Shown: piece after piece, positions 28,884 to 64,000 of the stretch
Position numbering within the stretch: position 1 is the stretch's first letter
Layout: every line of letters starts with the position of its first letter
Source of the DNA: Hysterangium stoloniferum
Lineage: Eukaryota; Basidiomycota; Agaricomycetes; Hysterangiales; Hysterangiaceae
Length of the DNA stretch: 64,000 nucleotides
Assembly (NCBI GenBank): GCA_015178975.1
Contig: WHVD01000187.1
Span: 83,492 to 147,491, forward strand
Direction: 5' to 3'
Position numbers and translations under genes: made by a program
The notes under the pieces: model-generated
Seen by the model: the letters and a program-made list of their open reading frames with translations, nothing else
Told to the model about the DNA's origin: nothing
Databases searched by the model: none

Positions 28884-29927
28884 AAGCCCTACGATGACAG
28901 TATGGATCAGATGGTTTCTTCTCCAGGATATGGGCAATGCTGCTGGAGTATAAGGGTTTTACATCACAGGACAGCCTTCTGTTTTTGAATCTGGATGGTG
29001 TCAAACTGTTTTGCATCCCTGACATTACCATCAGGAATCGACAGGTGCAGGAAATGGTTTCTTGTATGCTGTTAGGATATGTACAGGGCGGGTCTCCGGA
29101 GAAACCCATGTGATATCCAGTAGGACTTGGCTTCAGCTTATAGGCTGCACCCTCGCTAAATTGTGTTGTACAATTTCAGACAGGCAGACAGGAATCCCGG
29201 GGAGTCTGGGTGGGGGTCGTGGGTTGAGGGGTCATAGGTCGTAGGTCGTAGGTTGTGAGTCGAGATAGGTGAGAGATAGATGTGCTGGAGCCTGTGGGCT
29301 CTGACTAGTGTGAGCGGTATAATTCAAGTAGGAGTTTAGAGCAGAACATGTATTAGATTACTGGGGGGAATCTAAGCCGATTTTCTGACTGGATTGTATG
29401 GACAACATCTGCCAGTTTAAATAGACCATGGAGTGAATGTCAGACCGAATCCAATAATGATGAAATGAAATGAGCAAAACATAAAATGGGAATAGTAAAC
29501 ACCAAATTGGTGTTAGGAATGGGATGGAATGGAGCGGAGTCCGAATAGTGACAAATAATAAACCATAACGGGAAACGGAGTGGAAGCAGAGTCCGAATCA
29601 TGACAGGTCATTTGACTAAAACAGGAACAGGGCTCTGTTAGAGAGGTGACGGGTTTTACAAGTGGGGTCCGGTGACTGACGCACGGGATGAGGTCAGAAA
29701 TAGACAGAGATGGAGTCCGGTGGGTTTTCGGGTGACTGAAACACAATGTAACAAAGATGAACGTAGACAAGTCTGATGTATGGACTCCAGTGGGAATTCT
29801 GGTGAACTGATAATGGGTGCATATAGGGCGCGGGTGCATATAAGTTAGTGCCTGGAGTGTGGGCAGGATTTCCAGTCGTAACATATGCCCATTCAATTTT
29901 GGCTCAGCTAGGGGCAAGGAAACCTGC
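28884..29927 (+). pseudogene. Family A integrase N-terminal zinc domain, split
   Basis: Reads SQDSLLFLNLDGVKLFCIPD up to 29069, then AHSILAQLGARKPA across the two LTR B insertions, then ATYLQTNVWWSS and CKSCSMC from 36145. Joined, this gives the HHCC zinc-binding domain of Ty3 integrase. Only 39 bp of family A remain between the two inserts (29889-29927). Confidence 0.75.
29070..29883 (-). mobile_element. Family B solo LTR (copy 5), TSD TATGC
   Basis: 814 bp reverse copy, flanked by TATGC (29065-29069 and 29884-29888). Many C/T and G/A differences from copy 2. Confidence 0.93.
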
Positions 29928-30735
29928 TGTTACGACTGGACAATCCCGCCGGACTCCGGGCACTAACCCATACTCCCCCACACCCCACATGCACCAAATG
30001 TCTGTTTATAGGATTTCCCGCCCAGACTCCATACATCAAGACTCATTATGTTCGACCTCATTATGACACATATCAGTCACCGGACTTCCCCCGGACTCCA
30101 TCTATGTCTATGTCCATCTTCGTCCCACGCATCAGTCACCAGACCCCGCTCAGAATCCCATCACCGCTCTAATCGAGCCCCGTTCCCGTTTTAGTCAAAT
30201 GACCTGTCACAATTTAGGACTCCACTCCCACTCCGTTTCCCATTATGGGTTATGCTTTGTCACGATTCGGACTCCGCTCCATTCCTAACACCAAACTTGG
30301 TGTTTATTATTCCCGTTTCATGTTTTGATCATTTCATCTCATTATTACTGGATTCAGTATGACATTTACTCCACAGTCTATTTAAACTGGCAGATGTTGT
30401 ACATACAATCCAGTCAGAAAATTAGCTTAGATTCCCCCCCAGTAATCTAATCCATTTTCCGCTCTAAACCCTTGCTTGATTCACACCGCTCACACTAGTC
30501 GGAGCCCATGGGCTCCGGCACATCTATCTCTCTCATCTATCTCGACTCATGACCCACAACCCCTGACCTATGACCTACGACCCACAAACCCTGCCCGGAT
30601 TCCCCAGCATTCCCGTCCGCCTGTTCAAAATTGGACAACACGATCTAGTGAGGGCGCAGCCTATAAGCTGAAGCCAAGTCCTACCGGATACCCTGCGGGT
30701 TTCTCCAGAGACCCGCCCTGTGTGTGTACCTAACA
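29928..30735 (+). repeat. Family B 5' LTR
   Basis: 808 bp. Compared with the 3' LTR (35326-36144) nearly all differences in the first 250 bp are C/T or G/A, many in CpG context. Confidence 0.93.
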
Positions 30736-30835
30736 GTATTTTCTGACTATAAGCTGAAGCCAAGTCCTACCGGATATCCTGCGGGTTTCTCCGGAGACCC
30801 GCCCTGTGTGTGTATCCTAACAGTATTTTCTGACT
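30736..30835 (+). repeat. Duplicated LTR end and primer-site region
   Basis: GTATTTTCTGAC follows the LTR at 30736. The last about 76 bp of the LTR (ATAAGCTGAAGCC to TATCCTAACA) are then repeated, followed again by GTATTTTCTGAC and TAACACTCGCAGATTG. A similar GTATTTTCTGATC...TTGCAGATTG follows the related LTR at 61714, so this is the conserved start of the internal region and the likely primer-binding area. Confidence 0.75.
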
Positions 30836-30858
30836 AACACTCGCAGATTGTTTTCATT

Positions 30859-32134
30859 ATGCCACCAAGAAGAAATACACACGCACAGGCATCATTACCT
30901 GGACCGTCGACTCTTCATTCCCCGTTAACTCTGTATACCAGCAAGACGCTTGCGAACCAGTCAGAATCCACGGAAGAAGCCCGTATCGAAGAAGTCCTGG
31001 AAAACCAGGATGACTCCGAGCATGAGGACGAATCCATGGCCCCCAACAAGGGAAAAGGTGTCGAAAATCCTCCACCTGTTCAATGACCAACATTTGGGGG
31101 ATCCTACTTCTGAGTTTTTAGCAGGCACTATAGATAAATTTATGACGCACCTGCTCAAAGAATGAAAGAAAAAGGAACAAGAACCTCCACGGTCAAAAGT
31201 CAATGCTCCGGAACCCTTCACGGGTTCCAACCCAAACAAGCTCTCTACTTTCCTCATGCAATGTCACTTCAATTTCCGCGATCGATCCACTGCATTCTCC
31301 ACGGACTCCCAAAAAGTCAACTATGCACTCTCATATTTGTCGGGATCCGCGTTGAGATGGTTTGAACCGGCTTTTAGTGGAATTTCTGAGGAAGAGCCAC
31401 TTTGGCTCGAAGATTGGGATGCTTTTGTTGAGGAGCTTGAAACCAACTTTGGCCCATATGACCCGACAGGAGAAGCTGAGAATAGTCTCCCAAATCTTTG
31501 TATGAAGGACATGCAGTGCATCACGGAATACATCGTCCAATTCAACAATCTTGCAGCTCGTTGTCAGTGGGGCAATCCAGCTCTCCGCCACCAATTCTAT
31601 GCCGGTCTGCCATCCCACCTTAAAGACGAAGTCTCGAAAGGAGAAGATGGCAAGCCAAAAACCCTGTCTCATATGCACCTCAAGGCTCAAAACGCGGATG
31701 CACGTTATTGGGAATCTCACACAGAAGTTGCCCACGAGACCTCTGCGGACAAAGTGAACAAGTCCACAGCCAATAAAAACAACAACAATTCATCAACCAG
31801 CAACCAGAACTCCACGCAATCGGACAAGAAGAATGATGAAAAGTCTTCAAACAACAACAACAACAAGAACAAGGACAATAACAAGGGTCAACAGTCCAGC
31901 AAGCAAGCCGGAAAACCTGACCTCTCAGGCAAATTTGGACCCAATGGCAAATTGACCCCACAGGAAAGACAACGTCGTATGGACAACAACCTCTGTCTAT
32001 TGTGCGGGAAACCCGGTCATCGAGTCCCGGAATGTCTGCTGGCAAAAGCAAACTCTTCAAAGGGTCAAACAGCCAAGGCCTCCACGGAAACCCCGTCAAA
32101 GGACAAACCGGCTTTCAACTCGAAAAAAGAGTAA
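30859..32134 (+). pseudogene. Family B gag with leader frame
   Basis: Leader frame from ATG 30859 (MPPRRNTHAQASLP) ends at 31086 and the body continues one base forward. A single TGA at 31163-31165 sits where CGA would give KERKKKEQE, a CpG transition. The Gag core reads NAPEPFTGSNPNKLSTFL, QKVNYALSYLSGSALRWFEP, LEDWDAFVEELETNFGPYD. After a long Asn/Lys/Ser-rich spacer comes the CCHC knuckle [14 protein letters not shown] (about 31999-32040). The frame ends NSKKE at 32134 and overlaps pol in the -1 frame at an A6 tract. Gag assembles particles and binds RNA. Apart from the frame shift and one stop it is well preserved. Confidence 0.85.
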
Positions 32135-33963
32135 GCAACCCCACGGACTCCACACAGGTTGGGGGTTGCATTGCCTCTCCACGCATTAAAGAGTTTACCC
32201 GCCTCAGCGCATCCGCTCTTTCACATTCTGATTCATTTTTTGTTAAACTTATGTCTAATATGATCCCAAAATTCATTTTTTCAGCTCTCATAGATTCAGG
32301 CTCGACCCATTGTTCTTTAGATACAAAATTCACGCAAAAAAATTCTTCATCAACTTATTCGATAAATCCTGTCGGCCTCTGCCTCTTTGATGGCACAAGT
32401 AATTCGGTTGTTACCCAAGCTTGTGGTTTATCCATCTGTTTCCTGTGTGGAACATCTCAATTGGTCACTTTCTATGTGACCCAGTTAGACTCAAGTTGCT
32501 CGGTGGTCCTAGGACATAACTGGCTTACCCGCTACAATCCATTGATTGACTGGATAGCTAACAGTATAACATTCCGGACTCCCGTGGCAGCCAAGGAAAC
32601 TGCGCCTGTCTTGGCCTCCACGGCACCTGCAGTCTCGAGGACTCCTGTGATCCCTACGGCACCCTTGGCTTCCCCGGAACCCACGGCACCTCTGGCCATT
32701 TCTCTGATTAATGCTGCAGCTTTTATTAGGGCTTCAAAGATGGATGGGTCCCAGGCGTTCACTATCAACCTAAAAATTGATGAAGAAACTGGACGTTTTT
32801 CAACCCCGGTATCCAAATCTGAGCAAGCCGCTGACCTAGAAGGTGTTCTGGAGAAACATCATGACTTCGCGGATGTTTTTAGCAAGCGGAAAGCTGACTG
32901 GCTTCCACCTCACAGAGAATTCGACTTGAAAATCAATCTCGAAGATGGCGCTCAGCCACCCCTAGGACATATTTACCCGCACTCGTCCACAGAACCTTCC
33001 ACGATCTGCGATTTCCTGGATGAACATTTGTCCATAGGCTTTATCCCACCCTCAAAGTCTCCTTTTGGAGCACCTGTTCTGTTTGTCAGAAAAAAGGATG
33101 GATCCCTTAGACTATGCGTTGATTTCAGAGGCCTCAATGCTGTCACCAAAAAGGATAAATATGGACAAACTGAATGCATCAATCAGACATTGGAACAATA
33201 CCTCCGCGTATATTGCAACTACCAACAGGACAATTGGAAATCCTTGTTACCACTTGCAGAGTTTGCTTACAACAATGCACCTTCGGCCACTACTGGTGTT
33301 TCCCCGTTCTTTGCAAATAAAGGATATAATCCAAATATTACAGTACATCCAGAACGAAATCTCACCTCTGCTCACCCTCAAGAGTTCACTGTGGACCTCC
33401 ACGAGCTCCATGAGGAACTCCGGACTGCAATAAAGTCCGCCCAAGAGCAATACCAACTTTCAGAGGACAGACACCAGATCCTGCCACCCAACTTCAAGAT
33501 TGGCGACCATGTTTATGTCAAAGCTCAATTCTTCCGGACTACCTGTCCATCAAAAAAGCTTGCTGAAAAATATTTAGGTCCGTTTGAAATTATCACACAA
33601 GTAGGTTCAGTCTCTTGGACTCTACGGCTTCCGGATAGCATGTGCGCGGTACACCCAGTATTTCATGTTTCTATGTTAGAACCTTGTACTGCTAACACTA
33701 TCCTGGATCGCGTGCAATCTCCGCCTCCTCTGGTCATCATTGATGGAGAACCTGAGTTTGAAATCTCACAGATTTTAGATTCAAAAATTGACAAGCATCA
33801 ACGCACTTGTAAACTGCTTTACTTGGTCAAGTGGGTGGGTTACGAGGGCACCAATGAAGAAACCTCATGGATTTTGGCCACAGAACTTGGTAATGCCATG
33901 GAAATCATTACTGACTTTCATACAGCTTACCCACTCAAACCTGGACCATTACTGTCTCTCTGA
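32002..33963 (+). CDS. Family B pol: protease, RT start fused in frame to integrase end and chromodomain
   Basis: One uninterrupted 653-codon frame. Protease: [15 protein letters not shown] (about 32280) and [19 protein letters not shown] start: [61 protein letters not shown] to about 33157. It jumps directly into [14 protein letters not shown] of the integrase, so the YLDD palm, RNase H and most of the integrase core are absent without loss of frame. Then [34 protein letters not shown], and a chromodomain: [31 protein letters not shown]. The product cannot reverse transcribe but could still provide protease and a chromatin-reading module. Compare the intact order at 55.3-57.7 kb. Confidence 0.9.
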
Positions 33964-34154
33964 CCGCACTCCGTGGACCCCGTGTTACGTTTGGACTCAT
34001 TTTCATTATTCGCTGTTGCCCTATGTCTCTCTTTGCTTTTACAGGTTCTCACATGATTCTTCAAGTCCTTAAGCAGTTTTCCCGTGGACTTTGACTTTTA
34101 TACTTTTCACACTTCACTTTTATGATTCAAATTATTTTTATTCTATGTTACTCT

Positions 34155-35115
34155 TCAGTCTACATTTATGGGACTGTGTTTTTTCCCCACCTCCTCAGCT
34201 ACCTCCTCAGGAAGCTCCGCGACCTCTGCGGCAACCTTATCCTCATCCAACCCGGCATCCTCGGAACTCCCGACTTGCGGCTCTTCATACACATAGCCGC
34301 CATACTCCACCAGGAACTTCCAAACCTCCCCGTGGAGTCCAGACAGTTCCTTTGCCACCACTATGCAGACCTTGTTGCTCTTCCAGAGCAACTCATTTTG
34401 GGCCTCTATGCCCTCGGCGATCCATCCCAGGACCTCGTCCAACCTGGAAAACCCATCTGACCCGCTGATGTCCCATGCCCCAGACCCCACGGCCTGCTCG
34501 TGAACAAGTGAGCACCTCACTTTGAGGTGTGCACATTGGAAGCAGCCTGGACCCCAGCCGGATTTTCGGTTGCATTCAGTGTTCCGGTCATTACAACCAG
34601 AACACTGCAGGTCGTTCTGTGTGGGTAGGTGGACTGGCACTGCCTTCCTTGCTTTCTGTTGATACGGTTAGTTCCACAGTATTTCCCATGGACCCATTGC
34701 TTACCTTTTGGGGGCTCTCCGGCTCCCCCTCAGACTCCGACTTGACCTCTGTCACCTTGTTCTGAAAATAACAAGTCAGTGATAAAAAAACGACAAGTCA
34801 AAGATTGGGACTTACCTTTCCCGTGACAATTGCGGCTCTGTCCACAGCCACCTGTGCCTTCTCCGCAGCAGCCTGTGCAGCCTCCTCATCCTTCTTCCTC
34901 TGCCTCTCAGCCTCCTCCACGGCCAATGCCGCCTGGTACTCTCTGTCTAACTCCTCCTCAGCCTCCCTGGCCTCCCTCTCTGCTTCTTCATGAAGTTGGC
35001 GCTGCTCTTCTCGCTGCACCAAAAGTTGGGCCATGCTCCAAGGCACCTGATATGGAGTGCCCATGGAGGGCCTGGCGGTTGGCATTGCCTGTCTTAATGT
35101 TGGCTTTGGTCCCAT
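34155..35115 (-). CDS. Antisense three-exon gene in family B: coiled coil plus Zn2Cys6-like cluster, 285 aa
   Basis: Reverse strand between pol and the 3' LTR. Exon 1 35115-34816 (100 codons), intron 34815-34762 (54 bp, GTAAGT...CTGAC...CAG), exon 2 34761-34705 (19 codons), intron 34704-34656 (49 bp, GTAAGC...CTAAC...CAG), exon 3 34655-34155. All junctions are phase 0 and the joined frame is open. Exon 1 encodes a Glu/Ala/Arg-rich coiled coil (LVQREEQRQLHEEAEREARE). Exon 2 is acidic. Exon 3 has Cys with spacing C-X2-C-X6-C-X9-C-X2-C-X6-C (CSGC, TEC, CFQC, RCSL), matching the fungal Zn(II)2Cys6 pattern, then an acidic tail (EDKVAAEVAELPEEVAEEVG). A TATATAAAAA box lies 60 bp upstream. A homologue with the same introns is in family C. 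Function unknown; DNA binding is inferred. Confidence 0.8.
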
Positions 35116-35167
35116 TTTTTTCGATGATGGGGGTAATAAAGAAGAAGAAATTTGTATTTTTTCAAAT

Positions 35168-35177
35168 TTTTATATAG
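35168..35177 (-). promoter_or_regulatory. TATA box of the family B antisense gene
   Basis: Reverse strand TATATAAAAA, about 53-62 bp upstream of the ATG at 35115, followed by a pyrimidine-rich leader with TTCTTCTTCTTT. Confidence 0.6.
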
Positions 35178-35325
35178 GCTCATCCGTTTGAACCTTACCT
35201 TCCAGATCACATGACTCTTTGACACATACATGTAACTGATATGGCTTTTGACACATGCGCGTAGCCGACAAGAACCTTATCTAGGCCTAGAGCCTCTTTG
35301 GGACTTCGGCATAAAGGGAGGGTAC

Positions 35326-36144
35326 TGTTACGACCAGACAATCCCGCCAGACTCTGGGCACTGACCCGTACTCCCCCACGCCCCACACACACCAAATGTC
35401 TGTTTATAGGATTTCCCGCCCGGACTCTGTACGTCAAGACTCATTACGTTCGACCTCATTACGACACATATCAGTCACCGGACTTCCCCTGGACTCCATC
35501 TCTGTCTATGTCCGTCTTTGTCCCACACATCAGTCACCAGACCCCGCTCAGAATCCTGTCACTGCTCTAATTGAGCCCCATTCCCATTTTAGTCAAATGA
35601 CATGTCACGATTTAGGACTCCGCTCCCACTCCGTTTCCCATTATGGGTTATGCTTTGTCATGATTTGGACTCCACTCCATTCCGTCCCGTTCCTAACACC
35701 AAACTTGGTGTTTATTATTCCCGTTTCATGTTTTTCTCATTTCATCTCATTATTACTGGATTCGGTATGACATTTACTCCACAGTCTATTTAAACTGGCA
35801 GATGTTGTACATACAATCCAGTCAGAAAATTAGCTTAGATTCCCCCCCAGTAATCTAATCCATTTTCCGCTCTAAACCCTTGCTTGATTCACACTGCTCG
35901 CACTAGTCGGAGCCCATAGGCTCCAGCACATCTATCTCTCTCAACTATCTCGACTCACGACCCATGACCCCCGACCTACAACCTACAACCCACGAACCCT
36001 GCCCGGATTCCCCGGCATTCCCGTCCACCTGTTTGAAATTGGACAACACGATCTAGCGAGGGCGCAGCCTATAAGCTGAAGCCAATTCCTACTGGATATC
36101 CCGCGGGTTTCTCCAGAGACCCACCCTGTGTGTGTATCCTAACC
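35326..36144 (+). repeat. Family B 3' LTR
   Basis: 819 bp, preceded by the purine tract and followed by TSD CCTGC. Confidence 0.93.
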
Positions 36145-36565
36145 CCTGCCACCTACCTGCAAACCAATGTGTGGTGGTCATCATTAACCAAGGATGTCAA
36201 ATCATTTTGCAAGTCATGCAGCATGTGTGTAACTTCGAAATCTGATACCCAGAAACTGCAGGGACATCTTTGCTCATTGGAAGTGCCATCACAGCCATGG
36301 GAGGCAATTGGAATCAATTTTGTAGGAGCCTTGCCAGTGTCCAAGAATTGCCCGGGGGAGTTTGATAGCATCTGCATTATTATTCACCATTTAAATTGCA
36401 TGGTCTACTTGATTCTGGCATGCAGCAATTATACTGCTATTCAAATGGCCAAGGTGATATTCAAGCATGTCCACAAATTGCATGGGCTGCCAGTCAAAAT
36501 CATTAGCAATTGAGATTTGCTGTTTACAAGTATTTTTTGGAGAGAGCTTCATTGGTTGATAGGAG
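36145..36565 (+). pseudogene. Family A integrase, rest of zinc domain and start of core
   Basis: CKSCSMCVTSK (zinc ligands), QPWEAIGINFVGALPVS (first catalytic Asp region; the usual D is replaced by N in GINF), CIIIHHLNCMVYLI, KVIFKHVHKLHGLPVKIIS, with N-TGA at the position of the second catalytic Asp (SDRD in relatives). After HWLIGVELQN the core is deleted and joined to the pol tail. Inactive. Confidence 0.82.
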
Positions 36566-41990: not shown

Positions 41991-43580
41991 CAGTAGGCAA
42001 CAAAACCCTTACAATGTTTTGTACTTTTCGAAAGACATGGCTATTCCTCCAGAAATAAATTCTGTAAAATGCCGAAAGTATTATGTAATATACTTCAACA
42101 TCATACCTTCCAGAAATGCACAGCCACAAGGCACCACATCCTTATTTGGTAAGTCCACATCACATGCAAACCAATAGCTCATTGTAAGGGTTTTGTTGCA
42201 CACATTTTTAAAGTTCAAAATAGGTCCTAGTCACATGACTTCATTTATAAAGTTCAACAAAGTCATGTGACCACTCTTCCTCAATGTATATAAGGTGAAA
42301 GCAACCAGTTGGAATCCCACAATCACCCTACTCACAATGAAAAAGCTCTCCTCCAGCCAAATCCAACATGTTCTTACTCTACTTGACTCTGGCATTTCTG
42401 GAGCTCAAATATGTTACCAAACTCATCTCAGCAGTGCCACCATCAGTTGTATTCACTCTGAGCATCACCCTGACCTCCCAAATGCTCTGGTGGCTGTCCT
42501 ACAAAGCTTACCATAGCCAATATTGCCTATACTAGAAGAATAATTTGCATGGGGAAGGTTGATAATGCCACACAGGCAACCAAGAAACTTATAGACATCA
42601 TCAACACTCCTATTACTTCACAAACAGTGCATTGTCACCTCAAAACCATAGGCATTAGGGCTGTGGTAAAGAGAAAAAGGCCACTTCTCAAACCTCATCA
42701 TCAGAAATCTCAATTGGAGTTTGCAGAAAGGTATTTGGAATGGACCCTGGAGGACTGGAAGAGGGTCATATGGTCTGATGAGACTAAGATTAATAGGCTG
42801 GAATCAGATGGAAGGAAATATGTGTGGAAAAATGTGGGTGAGGGGTTAAATGATAGGTTAGTAGAGGGAACAGTCAAGTTTGGAGGAGGAAACCTGATGA
42901 TGTGGGGATGCATGGGCTGGGATGGGGTTGGGTTTGCAACCAAAATTGATGGGAGGATGGATGCTGAGCTTTATGTGGAGATCCTGGATGATGAACTCCA
43001 GCAAACCCTCAAATATTACAACAAAACAGTGGCTGACATTGTATTTCAACAAGACAATGACCCCAAACACACCAGCAAAAAGGCCCAGAAATGGTTCACT
43101 GACCATGATGTTACAGTCCTCAAGTGGCCTGCACAATCTCCTGACATGAATCTTATTGAACATCTGTGGAATCATGTCAAAAAGAAGCTGGGGAGTATGA
43201 ACAGCCTGTTCATGAACTGTGGGAGAGGGGCAGAAGGTGTGGGAAGAGATTCCAAAGGAGGAGTGTCAGAAGCTTATTGGGAGTATGCCTAGAAGACTTG
43301 CAGCAGTGATTAGAGCAAAGGGGGGCCATACTAAATACTAATTTCTTGTAATAATAGTCTCAAAATAGTGTGCAACAAAACCCTTACGATGAGCTATTGG
43401 TTTGTGTGTGATGTGGACTTACCAAATAAGGACATGGTGCCTTGTGGCTGTGCATTTCTGGAAGGTATGATGTTGAAGTATATTACATAATATTTTCAGC
43501 AATTTACAGAATTTATTTCTGTAGGAATAGCCATGTCTTTCAAAAAGTGCAAAACATTGTAAGGGTTTTGTTGCCTACTG
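41991..43580 (+). mobile_element. Tc1-type transposon family A (copy 2), 1590 bp
   Basis: Same ends as copy 1, TA at 41989-41990 and 43581-43582. The target is the GGACATAACTGG of the chromoviral protease (VLGHNWL), which is restored when the element and one TA are removed. Confidence 0.94.
42295..43342 (+). pseudogene. DD34E transposase, Tc1-A copy 2
   Basis: The N-terminal part (SSSQIQHVLTLLDSGIS) breaks near 42516 where a few bases differ from copy 1. The 247-codon frame from 42549 carries GKVDNATQATKKLIDI, RVIWSDETKINRLESDGRKY (first Asp), GGNLMMWGCMGWDGVGFATK, FQQDNDPKHTS (second Asp) and NLIEHLWNH (Glu). The frame shifts near 43190 and the true end GGHTKY is at 43325-43342. Close to intact; all three catalytic residues are present. 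Confidence 0.9.
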
Positions 43581-57790: not shown

Positions 57791-58845
57791 CTATTTTAAT
57801 GTTTCCGACACCCCAAATCCTCCTTCTGCTTCAACTCCCATATCATCTGCAATCTCCACACTTTCCACCATATCCTGTACTTCTTCATCTTCACTTTCTG
57901 GCCCTTTTCCTGACTCCCACCTTTTCTTGACACATTCCACCAATGGATCATTTGGTTGCTCCCTTGCCTTATCGGAAAACCTCTCGGAAACTGTGATAAT
58001 ACCAATGCTAACCATTACCTTCTCCAGAAATTCATTTTGTCTCTGGAAATTCCGGGTCAATGAACAGAAACCTTTTTCTTGGATATCATTAGGGCATTCC
58101 AATGCATCCCACATTTTCATAAGTTCCATTCCGATAAAAACCAATGCATCGACAGTGTCCTTGAGGAGTTCGACACCCATACTATCCATGTTCGGCACCT
58201 CAGTTTCCGCCATTTTGGCCGCTCCTGAACTTTCCGTGTCGTTAGTTTTATGAGCCTTCTCACCTTTCAGACCCCTCTTTGCAGTGAGAGTGCATGGAAG
58301 TTTGAGAACCACACAGGGATAGCAAGCTCCACCCCATTTTACCTTCTGTTTCCAACACATCATATTCCGAATTGAACATCAATAACACAGACTGTTGTGG
58401 ACAACTTCCATCTGTTCCGGAGCCTTGACCTTTTGTTTCTGTTTCAGAAGTTAATCAACTACCGACCTCTTGCAAATGGCACTTACTTTAGGACTCGAAG
58501 GCCCAGCCTCTCCCTCTCCCTCCACCTCCACGGTGTTTCGCTGTATCCAATAGTTATCAGATGAAACTATGGAAACTTATGGTTAAAACTTACTTTTCCT
58601 TCCCTTATTTCCTTATGTTTTTCCGCCGCCTCAGACTCCCGCTGTTGTCTTTCCGCCTCTTCTTTCTTCTTCTGAACCTCTGCCGTCTTCCATATCCATG
58701 CCTCCTTTTCCACCTTCGCTCGCTCCAACTCCCATTTTTCTGCCTCTTCCACCTCCCGCATCAACACCATTTCCTCCTCCTCTTGTCGTCGCTTCATCTC
58801 CTCCATCCTCTGTCATTTTTGTTGAAGTTCTGTGACCTTCGACAT
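57791..58845 (-). pseudogene. Antisense three-exon gene in family C (homologue of 34155-35115)
   Basis: Exon 1 58845-58594 (84 codons), intron 58593-58541 (53 bp), exon 2 58540-58487 (18 codons), intron 58486-58439 (48 bp), exon 3 58438-57791. The GT-AG introns occupy the same places as in family B: after EGK/TGK and after SPK/PQK. Exon 1: MSKVTELQQK, stop, then a Glu-rich coiled coil (MKRRQEEEEMVLMREVEEAE). Exon 3 keeps the six Cys (C-Y-stop-C, MMC, ACYPC, PCTL; C-X2-C-X6-C-X10-C-X2-C-X6-C) with a TGA inside the first CX2C. A long helical, acidic tail follows (KGPESEDEEVQDMVESVE). Two in-frame stops in 317 codons mean this copy is decayed, but structure and reading frame are conserved. Confidence 0.75.
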
Positions 58846-58965: not shown

Positions 58966-58973
58966 TTTTTATA
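58966..58973 (-). promoter_or_regulatory. TATA box of the family C antisense gene
   Basis: Reverse strand TATAAAAA about 121-128 bp upstream of the ATG at 58845. Confidence 0.5.
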
Positions 58974-61790: not shown

Positions 61791-63080
61791 TTTTTATTTA
61801 TTTATTATCTTCTTGTTTTTTGCCATGTAGCACTTTCAGTCACAGTGGCACTAAATGTTGCTTCCTAGGTTCCTCAAACCCTTCTGGCTGCTGTACCCAA
61901 ACTTCTTCCTTTATCATCCCATGTACTATAAGTGTACCAGCTTGATATCAAATTGTTGTACATATTGCTTAGTTCTTGGATGTACCCAGAGCTAGTAGAG
62001 TATGAAATGGTTCCCACTTCATTGCTGGTTATTCAACTATTGATGTTTGATACATGTAGTTAGGACAGCTATTTACATATGAATGAACAGTAAAGACTCT
62101 AGTTGCATGCTTTTTCTTAGCTAAATTGGTGAAAGACAATTGTAGCTGTGTATGCACAGTGTGAGGAGTATGCTTTTACCACAGTTTCATTGTGGTAAAA
62201 CACTCCTTTTATTTTATTTATATTTTACACATTTTATTCATATTTTTCTATCGATTGTTTTGTGAACTTTGAAGTATACACTGTCCAGACAGTTTGTGAG
62301 ATAGTAATATGAGTTATGTAGACTGTTCACAATGTTATGTATAAAGAACCACAGGGATGGAACTCCAAAGTATTTATAGAATTGCAATATACAGAGACAA
62401 ATGTTTCCAAATGATGATCATTAGATACACACTATGCAACATTTACATACATACATAGGCAGCAAAGGACTTTTCTGGGTCTTCCACAACATATTGCCCA
62501 AATGAAAGCTAGTACTGACTAGAAGTGGTAAGAGCTACAATAACCACAAGTATGCTAGTAAGCATCATAACTGGCAGATAATCAAAGGGGAAGAAACATA
62601 CTAGGAACATTCTTTTTGATTATATCAAAGATTTCATCACCATCACCATTTCCACAAGAAGTGGTTTTCGGAAATGTGTTCTTCACATTATTTATTAAGG
62701 TCATGGCTGAGGAATCCATATAAGATTGAACACTTTCATCAAAGTCCAAATTTCTTGAAGTATCAAAGAAATGACAGCTGATGGCCACTGCAGCTAAGAA
62801 TGATGTGTTAGAGGATGAAAAGTTGAACAAATAAGTATGAATACCAATGCTAAGCCATATAACCATGCAATAGGAGGAGCCAGAATAAAACTAAGAGGTT
62901 AAATAAAGTAATGGAAACCATTGCCTAAATATCAAAAAGGTTTAGCACACCTCATATATTGGATGTGTTGAGATGGACAGAAAGCATTGTTCAGCATAAT
63001 GATACTGGTGAAATAAAATAATCAGAATGACATAATTGTTCAAAAGATATATAGAAAATAGAAATATTGTGAAAATAAAA
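61791..63080. other. AT-rich region without recognised gene
   Basis: Only short frames. A reverse frame 62866-62582 shows no domain. No repeats seen apart from ATTTATTTA runs. Confidence 0.3.
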
Positions 63081-63084
63081 AGAG

Positions 63085-64000
63085 ATCACATGCAGAAAGA
63101 GAAGCCATGAGGGGGAAAGAGGGCAACAAAAGTCAGAAACTCACATTCTGGGAAGATCATACCGAGAGAAATAAGCCATGAGAGACAGAAAAGGAGGAAA
63201 AAATCAAAAACTCACTTGCTGGGAAGAGCATGCCAAGGAAGATGAGCCATGAGGGGCAGACAAGGAGGAAAAGGTAAGAAGCTCACTTCCTGGGAAGAGC
63301 ATGCCAAAGGAGATGAGCCATGATGTGCAAACAAGGAAGAAAAGGTCAGAAACTCACTTCCTGGGAAGAGCATGCCAAGGAGATGAGCCATGATGGGTAG
63401 ACAAGGAGGAAAAGGTCAGAAACTCACAAGCTGGGAAGAGCATGCCAAGGGAGATAAGCCATGATGTGCAGACAAGGAGGAAAAGGTCAGAAACTCACAG
63501 ACTGGGAAGCGCATGCCAAGGGAGATCAACTGTGATGTCCAGACAAGGAGGAAAAGGTCAGAAACACACAGACTGGGAAGAGCATGCCAAGGGAGATGAG
63601 CCATGATGTGCAAACAAGGAAGAAAAGGTCAGAAACTCACTTGCTAGGAAGAGCATGCCAAGGGAGATGAGCCATGATGTGCAGACAAGGAGGAAAAGGT
63701 CAGAAACTCACTTCCTGGGAAGAGCATGCCAAGGGAGATGAGCCATGATGTGCAGACAAGGAGGAAAAGGTCAGAAACTCACTCGCTGGGAAGAGCATGC
63801 CAAGGGAGATGAGCCATGATGTACAGACAAGGAGGAAAAGGTCAGAAACTCACAGACTGGGAAGCGCATGCCAAGGGAGATCAACTGTGATGTCCAGACA
63901 AGGAGGAAAAGGTCAGAAACACACAGACTGGGAAGAGCATGCCAAGGGAGATGAGCCATGATGTGCAAACAAGGAAGAAAAGGTCAGAAACTCACAGACT
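63085..64000. repeat. 71-bp minisatellite with 355-bp higher-order unit
   Basis: About 13 units of GGGAAGAGCATGCCAAGGGA, GATGAGCCATGATGTGCAGA, CAAGGAGGAAAAGGTCAGAA and ACTCAC-like sequence, period 71 bp, continuing past the window end. A distinctive variant unit (GATCAACTGTGATGTCC) recurs at 63525 and 63881, and 63416-63613 is almost identical to 63771-63968, an offset of 355 bp (5 x 71). Because 71 is not a multiple of 3, open frames in it are not genes. Confidence 0.93.

Follow-up and report, generated by a model that had tools for sequence, protein, structure and literature searches.

A conserved antisense gene with two predicted introns between pol and the 3' LTR of a mushroom chromovirus

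Introns in a retrotransposon are normally lost, and an antisense orientation is a simple way to keep them. The locus analysed here, which lies in a window of 64,000 nucleotides (the whole stretch of DNA under analysis, C98:83492-147491 of the 111-Mb genome of Hysterangium stoloniferum), raises the question of whether a chromovirus can carry an intact spliced gene on the strand opposite to pol and, if so, what that gene might do. Antisense accessory genes of LTR elements are known.

The antisense gene and its host element

The element of interest, a copy of a chromovirus that we call family B, occupies 29928-36144 and carries the following features:

29923-29927: target-site copy CCTGC, before the 5' LTR
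29928..30822, plus strand: 5' LTR of family B, with its end at 30736 or 30822 owing to an 86-bp tandem duplication
31256..33963, plus strand: gag, protease and a pol remnant with SH3-like domain and chromodomain (Pfam Retrotrans_gag, RVP_2, SH3_Tf2-1, Chromo)
34155..34655, minus strand: exon 3, with the six-cysteine motif and the C-terminal part; stop codon at 34157-34155
34656..34704, minus strand: intron 2, 49 nt, GT-AG, with a CTAAC branch-like site
34705..34761, minus strand: exon 2, 57 nt, acidic/serine-rich, flanked by two basic clusters
34762..34815, minus strand: intron 1, 54 nt, GT-AG, with a CTGAC branch-like site
34816..35115, minus strand: exon 1, with the start codon, a charged region that looks helical (coiled-coil-like, by eye) and the first basic cluster
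35167..35176, minus strand: TATA box TATATAAAAA, recognised by sequence
35313..35325, plus strand: polypurine tract AAAGGGAGGGTAC, recognised by sequence and place
35326..36144, plus strand: 3' LTR of family B, then the target-site copy CCTGC at 36145-36149

We classed family B as a chromovirus on its Ty3 gag-pol and on a chromodomain (PF00385) above the Pfam cut-off at the pol C-terminus; Retrotrans_gag and RVP_2 also score above cut-off in the window element, and its gag holds a zinc-knuckle-like motif that is weak and below cut-off. The window copy has lost most of RT-RNase H-IN and should therefore not be autonomous, its pol frame having 680 codons as against exactly 1304 in 17 of 144 scored pol matches (the best 144 of 4210 candidates). 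The visible divergence of its LTRs, described in an earlier sequence-only reading of the locus, was borne out, the two being 91.6% identical over 818 bp. The pol frame of this copy remains open through the deletion of ~620 codons, at about 33150-33165. Directly upstream of the element, an inverted LTR-like remnant at 29083-29723 is 78-92% complementary to its LTRs, and elsewhere in the window we observed a transposase frame of Tc1/mariner type (DDE_3, HTH_Tnp_Tc3_2) at 42549-43292 and a tandem array with a 71-bp period, in about ten overlapping register copies, at 63025-63995.

The antisense gene runs along the minus strand from 35115 to 34155, with three exons, two phase-0 GT-AG introns and 285 codons plus stop; its ATG is at 35115-35113, and TATATAAAAA lies 61 nt before that ATG. 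The sequence-only reading had proposed an ATG, three exons and two canonical short introns at coordinates that proved exact to the base; both junctions fall between codons and leave the joined 285-codon frame open, as it had claimed, the proposed TATA box was found at 35176-35167, and the gene lies where it had been placed, after pol and before the 3' LTR, on the strand opposite to pol. The observation of the gene is confirmed, and the reading of it as an intact spliced antisense gene between a chromovirus pol and 3' LTR is supported by omega and by what the copies have conserved (splice sites, frame and upstream DNA), with 'TATA-driven' as a putative, sequence-based description. The NCBI gene model P0001, which is unplaced among the copies, crosses junction 1 as proposed for the antisense gene, and models P0001 and P0002 each omit part or all of the cysteine module. 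The two splice junctions would mark antisense expression in any strand-specific RNA-seq.

Conservation and codon constraint among family B copies

There are at least 150 family B exon-3 matches (the best 150 of 1286 candidates). We assembled a whole-length set from the best 40 DNA copies of 865 candidates and an exon-3 set of 30 taken from those best 150, and 58 copies were left for analysis after removal of repeats and partial rows. Dropped from the codon and 58-copy analyses were L026, a duplicate of L025, together with L038 and L040, whose 5' part is not homologous and holds no ATG; nine further loci were removed from the 58-copy set as repeats of earlier ones, and for the stop count over 39 copies L026 alone was dropped. 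Copy counts are lower bounds, and the copies were chosen by similarity to the antisense gene, which favours retained sequence and should not itself produce a codon or splice pattern.

The ATG is kept in all 58 copies (38/40 before the two partial rows without ATG were dropped), as are acceptor 1 and acceptor 2, with donor 1 kept in 57 of 58 and donor 2 in 56 of 58. Altogether 229 of 232 splice dinucleotides are kept and 3 are lost, so that a pattern of random stops and lost splice sites in homologous elements, which had been named as refuting the gene, was not seen. The branch sites that had been read as CTGAC and CTAAC are matched across copies by a CTRAY branch-like sequence, in intron 1 of 49 of 58 copies and in intron 2 of all 58. 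In a test of exons 1 and 2 (exon 3 was excluded, with alignment gaps falling inside its stop codon), exon 1 ranges from 285 to 327 nt, yet its length is divisible by three in 52 of 58 copies, and exon 2 measures exactly 57 nt in 55 of them; intron 1, at 48 to 64 nt, follows no multiple-of-three rule in the 58 copies. Of the 58 loci, 57 have a pol match, and in every one of the 57 the gene lies on the opposite strand to it. The distance from gene to pol end is 192-221 nt in 52 loci and 786-948 nt in five, which are probably the five whose pol matches are merely 300-399 nt long.

The pattern of substitution is that of a coding sequence under purifying selection. Pairwise differences among the 58 copies amount to 10% at codon positions 1 and 2 and 24% at position 3 of the antisense gene, to 19% and 29% in the two intron interiors, and to 12% in the 5' leader, 13% in the TATA stretch and 20% after the stop. 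Under a codon model with kappa set to 1 in the gene frame and wrong-frame controls alike, which leaves transition bias outside the model, the antisense gene has an omega of 0.324 (lnL -13900.6 against -14248.7 at omega 1; delta lnL 348), close to the 0.337 of the adjacent pol end (52 rows). Pairwise dN/dS is 0.32 among the closest pairs and 0.20 among the most distant for the antisense gene, and 0.32 and 0.18, respectively, for pol. For the first 37 copies the gene frame gave an omega of 0.320 and the control frames 1.00, 0.96, 1.02 and 1.15, while the reverse frame that shares third positions with the gene gave 0.41. As for coding on the other strand, which we rejected, this latter frame holds 138 stops in 10861 codons and is stop-free in none of 39 copies, and another reverse frame is stop-free in 4 of 39 copies but has an omega of 1.02.

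Four-fold sites outside CpG context differ by 0.189 in the antisense gene (stretch 33964-35115) against 0.053 in the adjacent pol end at 33163-33963 (the same 58 copies), and pairwise distances in the antisense gene are weakly correlated with those in pol (0.20-0.41) and LTR (0.19-0.43). The excess over pol might stem from a higher rate or from lineages that are older and have swapped their pol ends, and an exchange of modules among element lineages could have produced these patterns.

Conservation extends into the DNA upstream of the gene, where the following repeats lie:

35247..35256, minus strand: upstream repeat ATGTGTCAAA, copy 1; conserved in 97% or more of the 58 rows at nine of ten positions and in 90% or more at the remaining one
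35218..35227, minus strand: upstream repeat ATGTGTCAAA, copy 2; conserved in 97% or more of the 58 rows at nine of ten positions and in less than 90% at the last

The best-conserved of 49 sixty-base bins (36140-33201) is 35240-35181, at 0.963, just upstream of the antisense TATA and ahead of every pol bin; the second-best, 34040-33981 (0.947), lies just after the pol stop. The two repeats, 29 bp apart, fall in the bin 35240-35181 and its neighbour and have 18 of their 20 positions kept in at least 97% of the 58 rows. No exact ATGTGTCAAA occurs elsewhere in the window on either strand, LTRs included, and its absence from the LTRs of the window element gives no support to a direct LTR target. 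At the TATA box, the sequence TATATAAAA is present exactly in only 34 of 58 copies. Median distance is 0.08 across 35116-35327. The pol value is about the same, 0.073-0.080, and the intron stretch reaches 0.17 and the first part of the LTR 0.23; since 35116-35327 also precedes the polypurine tract, part of this constraint may serve the sense strand.

Stops number 75 in 11,032 codons of 39 copies. Their main origin is CGA turned TGA, and four codons at which CGA commonly occurs as the alternative account for 54 of the 75, which fits CpG decay after insertion; the CpG observed/expected ratio is 1.0 in six young copies and drops to 0.42 in four that are old. Four of the 40 whole-length copies (L001, L007, L031 and L035) have kept every one of the four splice sites together with a fully open spliced frame, and in L020 the frame is open and donor 2 is lost. 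Among 21 mostly younger copies of the exon-3 set that are not in the whole-length set, 15 encode a full-length spliced protein of 294 codons, and the 210 pairs of these 21 copies include 3 that are identical over the aligned stretch and 28 that exceed 99% identity. Next to 15 of the 17 pol frames of 1304 codons, immediately downstream on the opposite strand, lies an exon-3 match, which is free of stops in 13. One of the 17 sits 613 bases from its contig start and has no room for a whole gene. In another (C2:324577, L079 at C2:325300-327300), an internal deletion of ~0.6 kb has removed the middle of the antisense gene, so that the gene may not be needed in cis. Several young copies lie within ~3 kb of contig ends (for example on C199, C103, C16, C25 and C33), a placement that could come from repeats having broken the assembly or from elements favouring chromosome ends.

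The cysteine module and a relative in a second chromovirus

In the antisense product, a charged N-terminal region is followed by basic clusters around exon 2 and, at residues 137-167, by a module of the form C-x2-C-x6-C-x9-C-x2-C-x6-C, whose six cysteines are kept in 345 of 348 codons across the 58 copies, against a mean conservation of 86%. This spacing falls within the consensus of the Zn2Cys6 (GAL4-type) class. The fungal regulator-like domain that the sequence-only reading had named is thus matched in cysteine spacing and fell short in the profile search, where Pfam Zn_clus scored at best 14.0 bits against a curated cut-off of 21. Zn_clus was the sole Pfam family found for the isolated module (4 of 5 modules matched at E up to 10), and whole antisense proteins matched it in 2 of 3 cases, with a best E of 3.8, below cut-off. 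Pfam recognised no other domain in the protein, and comparison with solved structures gave no significant match (best E 0.64 and 1.4). A regulator domain is therefore suggestive, not established; judged by motif, the basic clusters make a nuclear protein likely, and the module would be expected to bind zinc. Protein-database searches with the family B protein, one of which scored the 8000 candidates with the most words in common with it, gave two Hysterangium proteins and none from another species, and viral contigs gave no match to family B exon 3 and none to the family A IN.

Within the window, a protein search with the family B gene found a weak relative at 58543-58286 (E 6e-6), which belongs to a second chromovirus, family A:

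57791..58845, minus strand: family A relative, exons 58845-58594, 58540-58487 and 58438-57791
58593-58541 and 58486-58439, minus strand: family A introns, both phase 0
58967..58973, minus strand: TATAAAA preceding the family A gene, retained at 7 of 8 loci

As in family B, the gene is antisense and follows the end of pol. The window's family A copy has two in-frame TGA codons, and eight loci were fetched including this one, of which L073 was dropped as not homologous upstream. Of the remaining seven, two have open frames, of 310 and 320 codons. The seven together retain 25 of 28 splice dinucleotides, with all three losses at intron 1, and give an omega of 0.262 (lnL -3102.8 against -3180.5); wrong frames give 1.15 and 0.89. 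At least 150 family A matches exist (the best 150 of 491 candidates), and selection, splicing and promoter of the antisense gene are testable on at least 150 scored copies per family.

Aligning the family B profile with one open family A protein gave an hhalign probability of 97.2 (E 4e-11, 34% identity, 82 columns). Intron 1 lies at the identical aligned residue in the two families and intron 2 within one codon, exon 2 having 19 codons in B and 18 in A, and both share the six-cysteine motif C-x2-C-x6-C-x9/10-C-x2-C-x6-C. The IN stretches of the two families are 72% identical over 213 residues. That introns are common to two families so distant suggests a gene long established in the lineage and not a recent passenger; the simplest reading of the alignments is that it descended with the element from before the A/B split, with transfer between elements a possible alternative.

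Possible roles and comparison with known systems

Introns that appear in RNA as CT-AC are ignored by the spliceosome. The genomic RNA used for reverse transcription would show both introns of the antisense gene in this form, and each new copy would retain them; they may survive retrotransposition because of the antisense orientation. We picture the gene as being transcribed from its own promoter opposite gag-pol, spliced twice and translated into a protein with a charged N-terminus, two basic clusters and a zinc-cluster-like module, which would serve element copies in trans as a nuclear regulator, for instance by setting LTR or antisense-promoter activity or by countering silencing. We judge it slightly better than an even bet that a spliced accessory gene with its own promoter, carried by a recently active retrotransposon lineage, encodes such a nuclear, DNA- or chromatin-binding trans regulator; the regulatory part is a best guess by analogy with Grande gene23 and the HTLV antisense proteins. 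More tentative, and in our estimate rather less probable than not, is a fuller account in which a mushroom chromovirus lineage has long carried a spliced antisense zinc-cluster regulator gene, acquired with its introns. Its product would act in trans on the gene's own promoter and on element activity, and the gene would be a fungal parallel to the spliced antisense regulators that some retroviruses have.

The same spliced protein could instead serve replication or integration, through nuclear import, chromatin tethering or nucleic-acid chaperoning, with a module that binds RNA or protein. This has perhaps the standing of a serious minority view: the gene coexists with long pol frames, and a pair of basic clusters with a CxxC module would suit any nucleic-acid binding, yet such a role is partly filled by the weak, sub-cut-off zinc-knuckle-like motif of gag and by the pol chromodomain. 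The best-conserved bin above the antisense TATA suits independent expression better, an argument tempered by the finding that the whole of 35116-35327 is conserved about as well as pol. Another alternative puts the function in the antisense RNA, which would control copy number by pairing with the genomic RNA and leave the protein secondary. It would draw on the high conservation of the upstream DNA and on the overlap that an antisense transcript must have with the genomic RNA in its 3' part; we think it improbable, since function in RNA only gives no reason for codon constraint, in-frame lengths of exons 1 and 2 or conserved introns.

Nor does a recently captured host gene, carried as a mere passenger, appear any more probable. 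Its introns would indicate acquisition as DNA or unspliced RNA, and zinc-cluster genes do exist in the genome (42 Zn_clus matches), but omega is close to that of pol, the matches listed are mostly element copies with no host copy among them, and two families with diverged proteins and common introns make the association look old. That a decayed repeat shows an open frame and splice motifs by chance, an idea that might be entertained for a window copy that is a deleted, aged insertion, we reject with near certainty: 0 of 2000 dinucleotide shuffles of the joined antisense CDS stay open, the structure is conserved across 58 copies, and omega is 0.324.

The nuclear trans regulator that we favour has parallels in plants. 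Antisense accessory ORFs are described for the Ty3 elements Grande of maize (gene23), RIRE2 of rice, Retand of Silene (TRP28) and PvRetro13, between pol and the 3' LTR and in most copies of a family, and Grande gene23 is reported to be transcribed from its own upstream promoter and to yield a nuclear product, in the relevant passages of PMC7264820 and PMC11963269. The family B gene resembles these in being antisense, between pol and the 3' LTR and conserved in many copies; it differs in that those are plant families whose domains are TRP28 or SMC and not the six-cysteine module found here, and Retand, unlike family B, is a non-chromovirus. The word 'intron' is absent from the main text of both papers, and the review among them calls, in a passage on such genes, for examination of antisense and spliced transcripts (PMC7264820). 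The HTLV proteins HBZ and APH-2, in the account given by part of PMC3185765, come from spliced antisense mRNA of the 3' end of the integrated element, are nuclear and lower or block activation of viral sense transcription. These genes start inside the 3' LTR, and HBZ has a bZIP domain; the putative TATA of the family B gene is internal to the element, at 150 bp from the LTR, and the domain of the family B protein is a different one. We treat the HTLV genes as an analogue, with no homology implied. The Zn2Cys6 factors share the six-cysteine spacing, with the family B module below the Pfam cut-off.

A fungal parallel is brtn of the Boty-like elements of Botrytis cinerea, described in passages of PMC7264820 and PMC8365987 as an extra antisense gene between pol and the 3' LTR, in an element for which a chromodomain (CHROMO) is named in part of PMC4227169. 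It is thus likewise an antisense gene at the same place in a fungal chromodomain element, a likeness by description and not by sequence, in a host that is an ascomycete. The sequence-only reading had called a spliced antisense gene of this kind undescribed, and in the literature searched (titles and the starts of abstracts, with few subscription papers) we found no spliced antisense gene in a fungal LTR element; the claim has to be narrowed, as antisense genes without further specification are known, fungal brtn among them. Antisense accessory genes are therefore an established feature of LTR elements, and what appears new here is the spliced form in a fungal element, together with its relative in family A.
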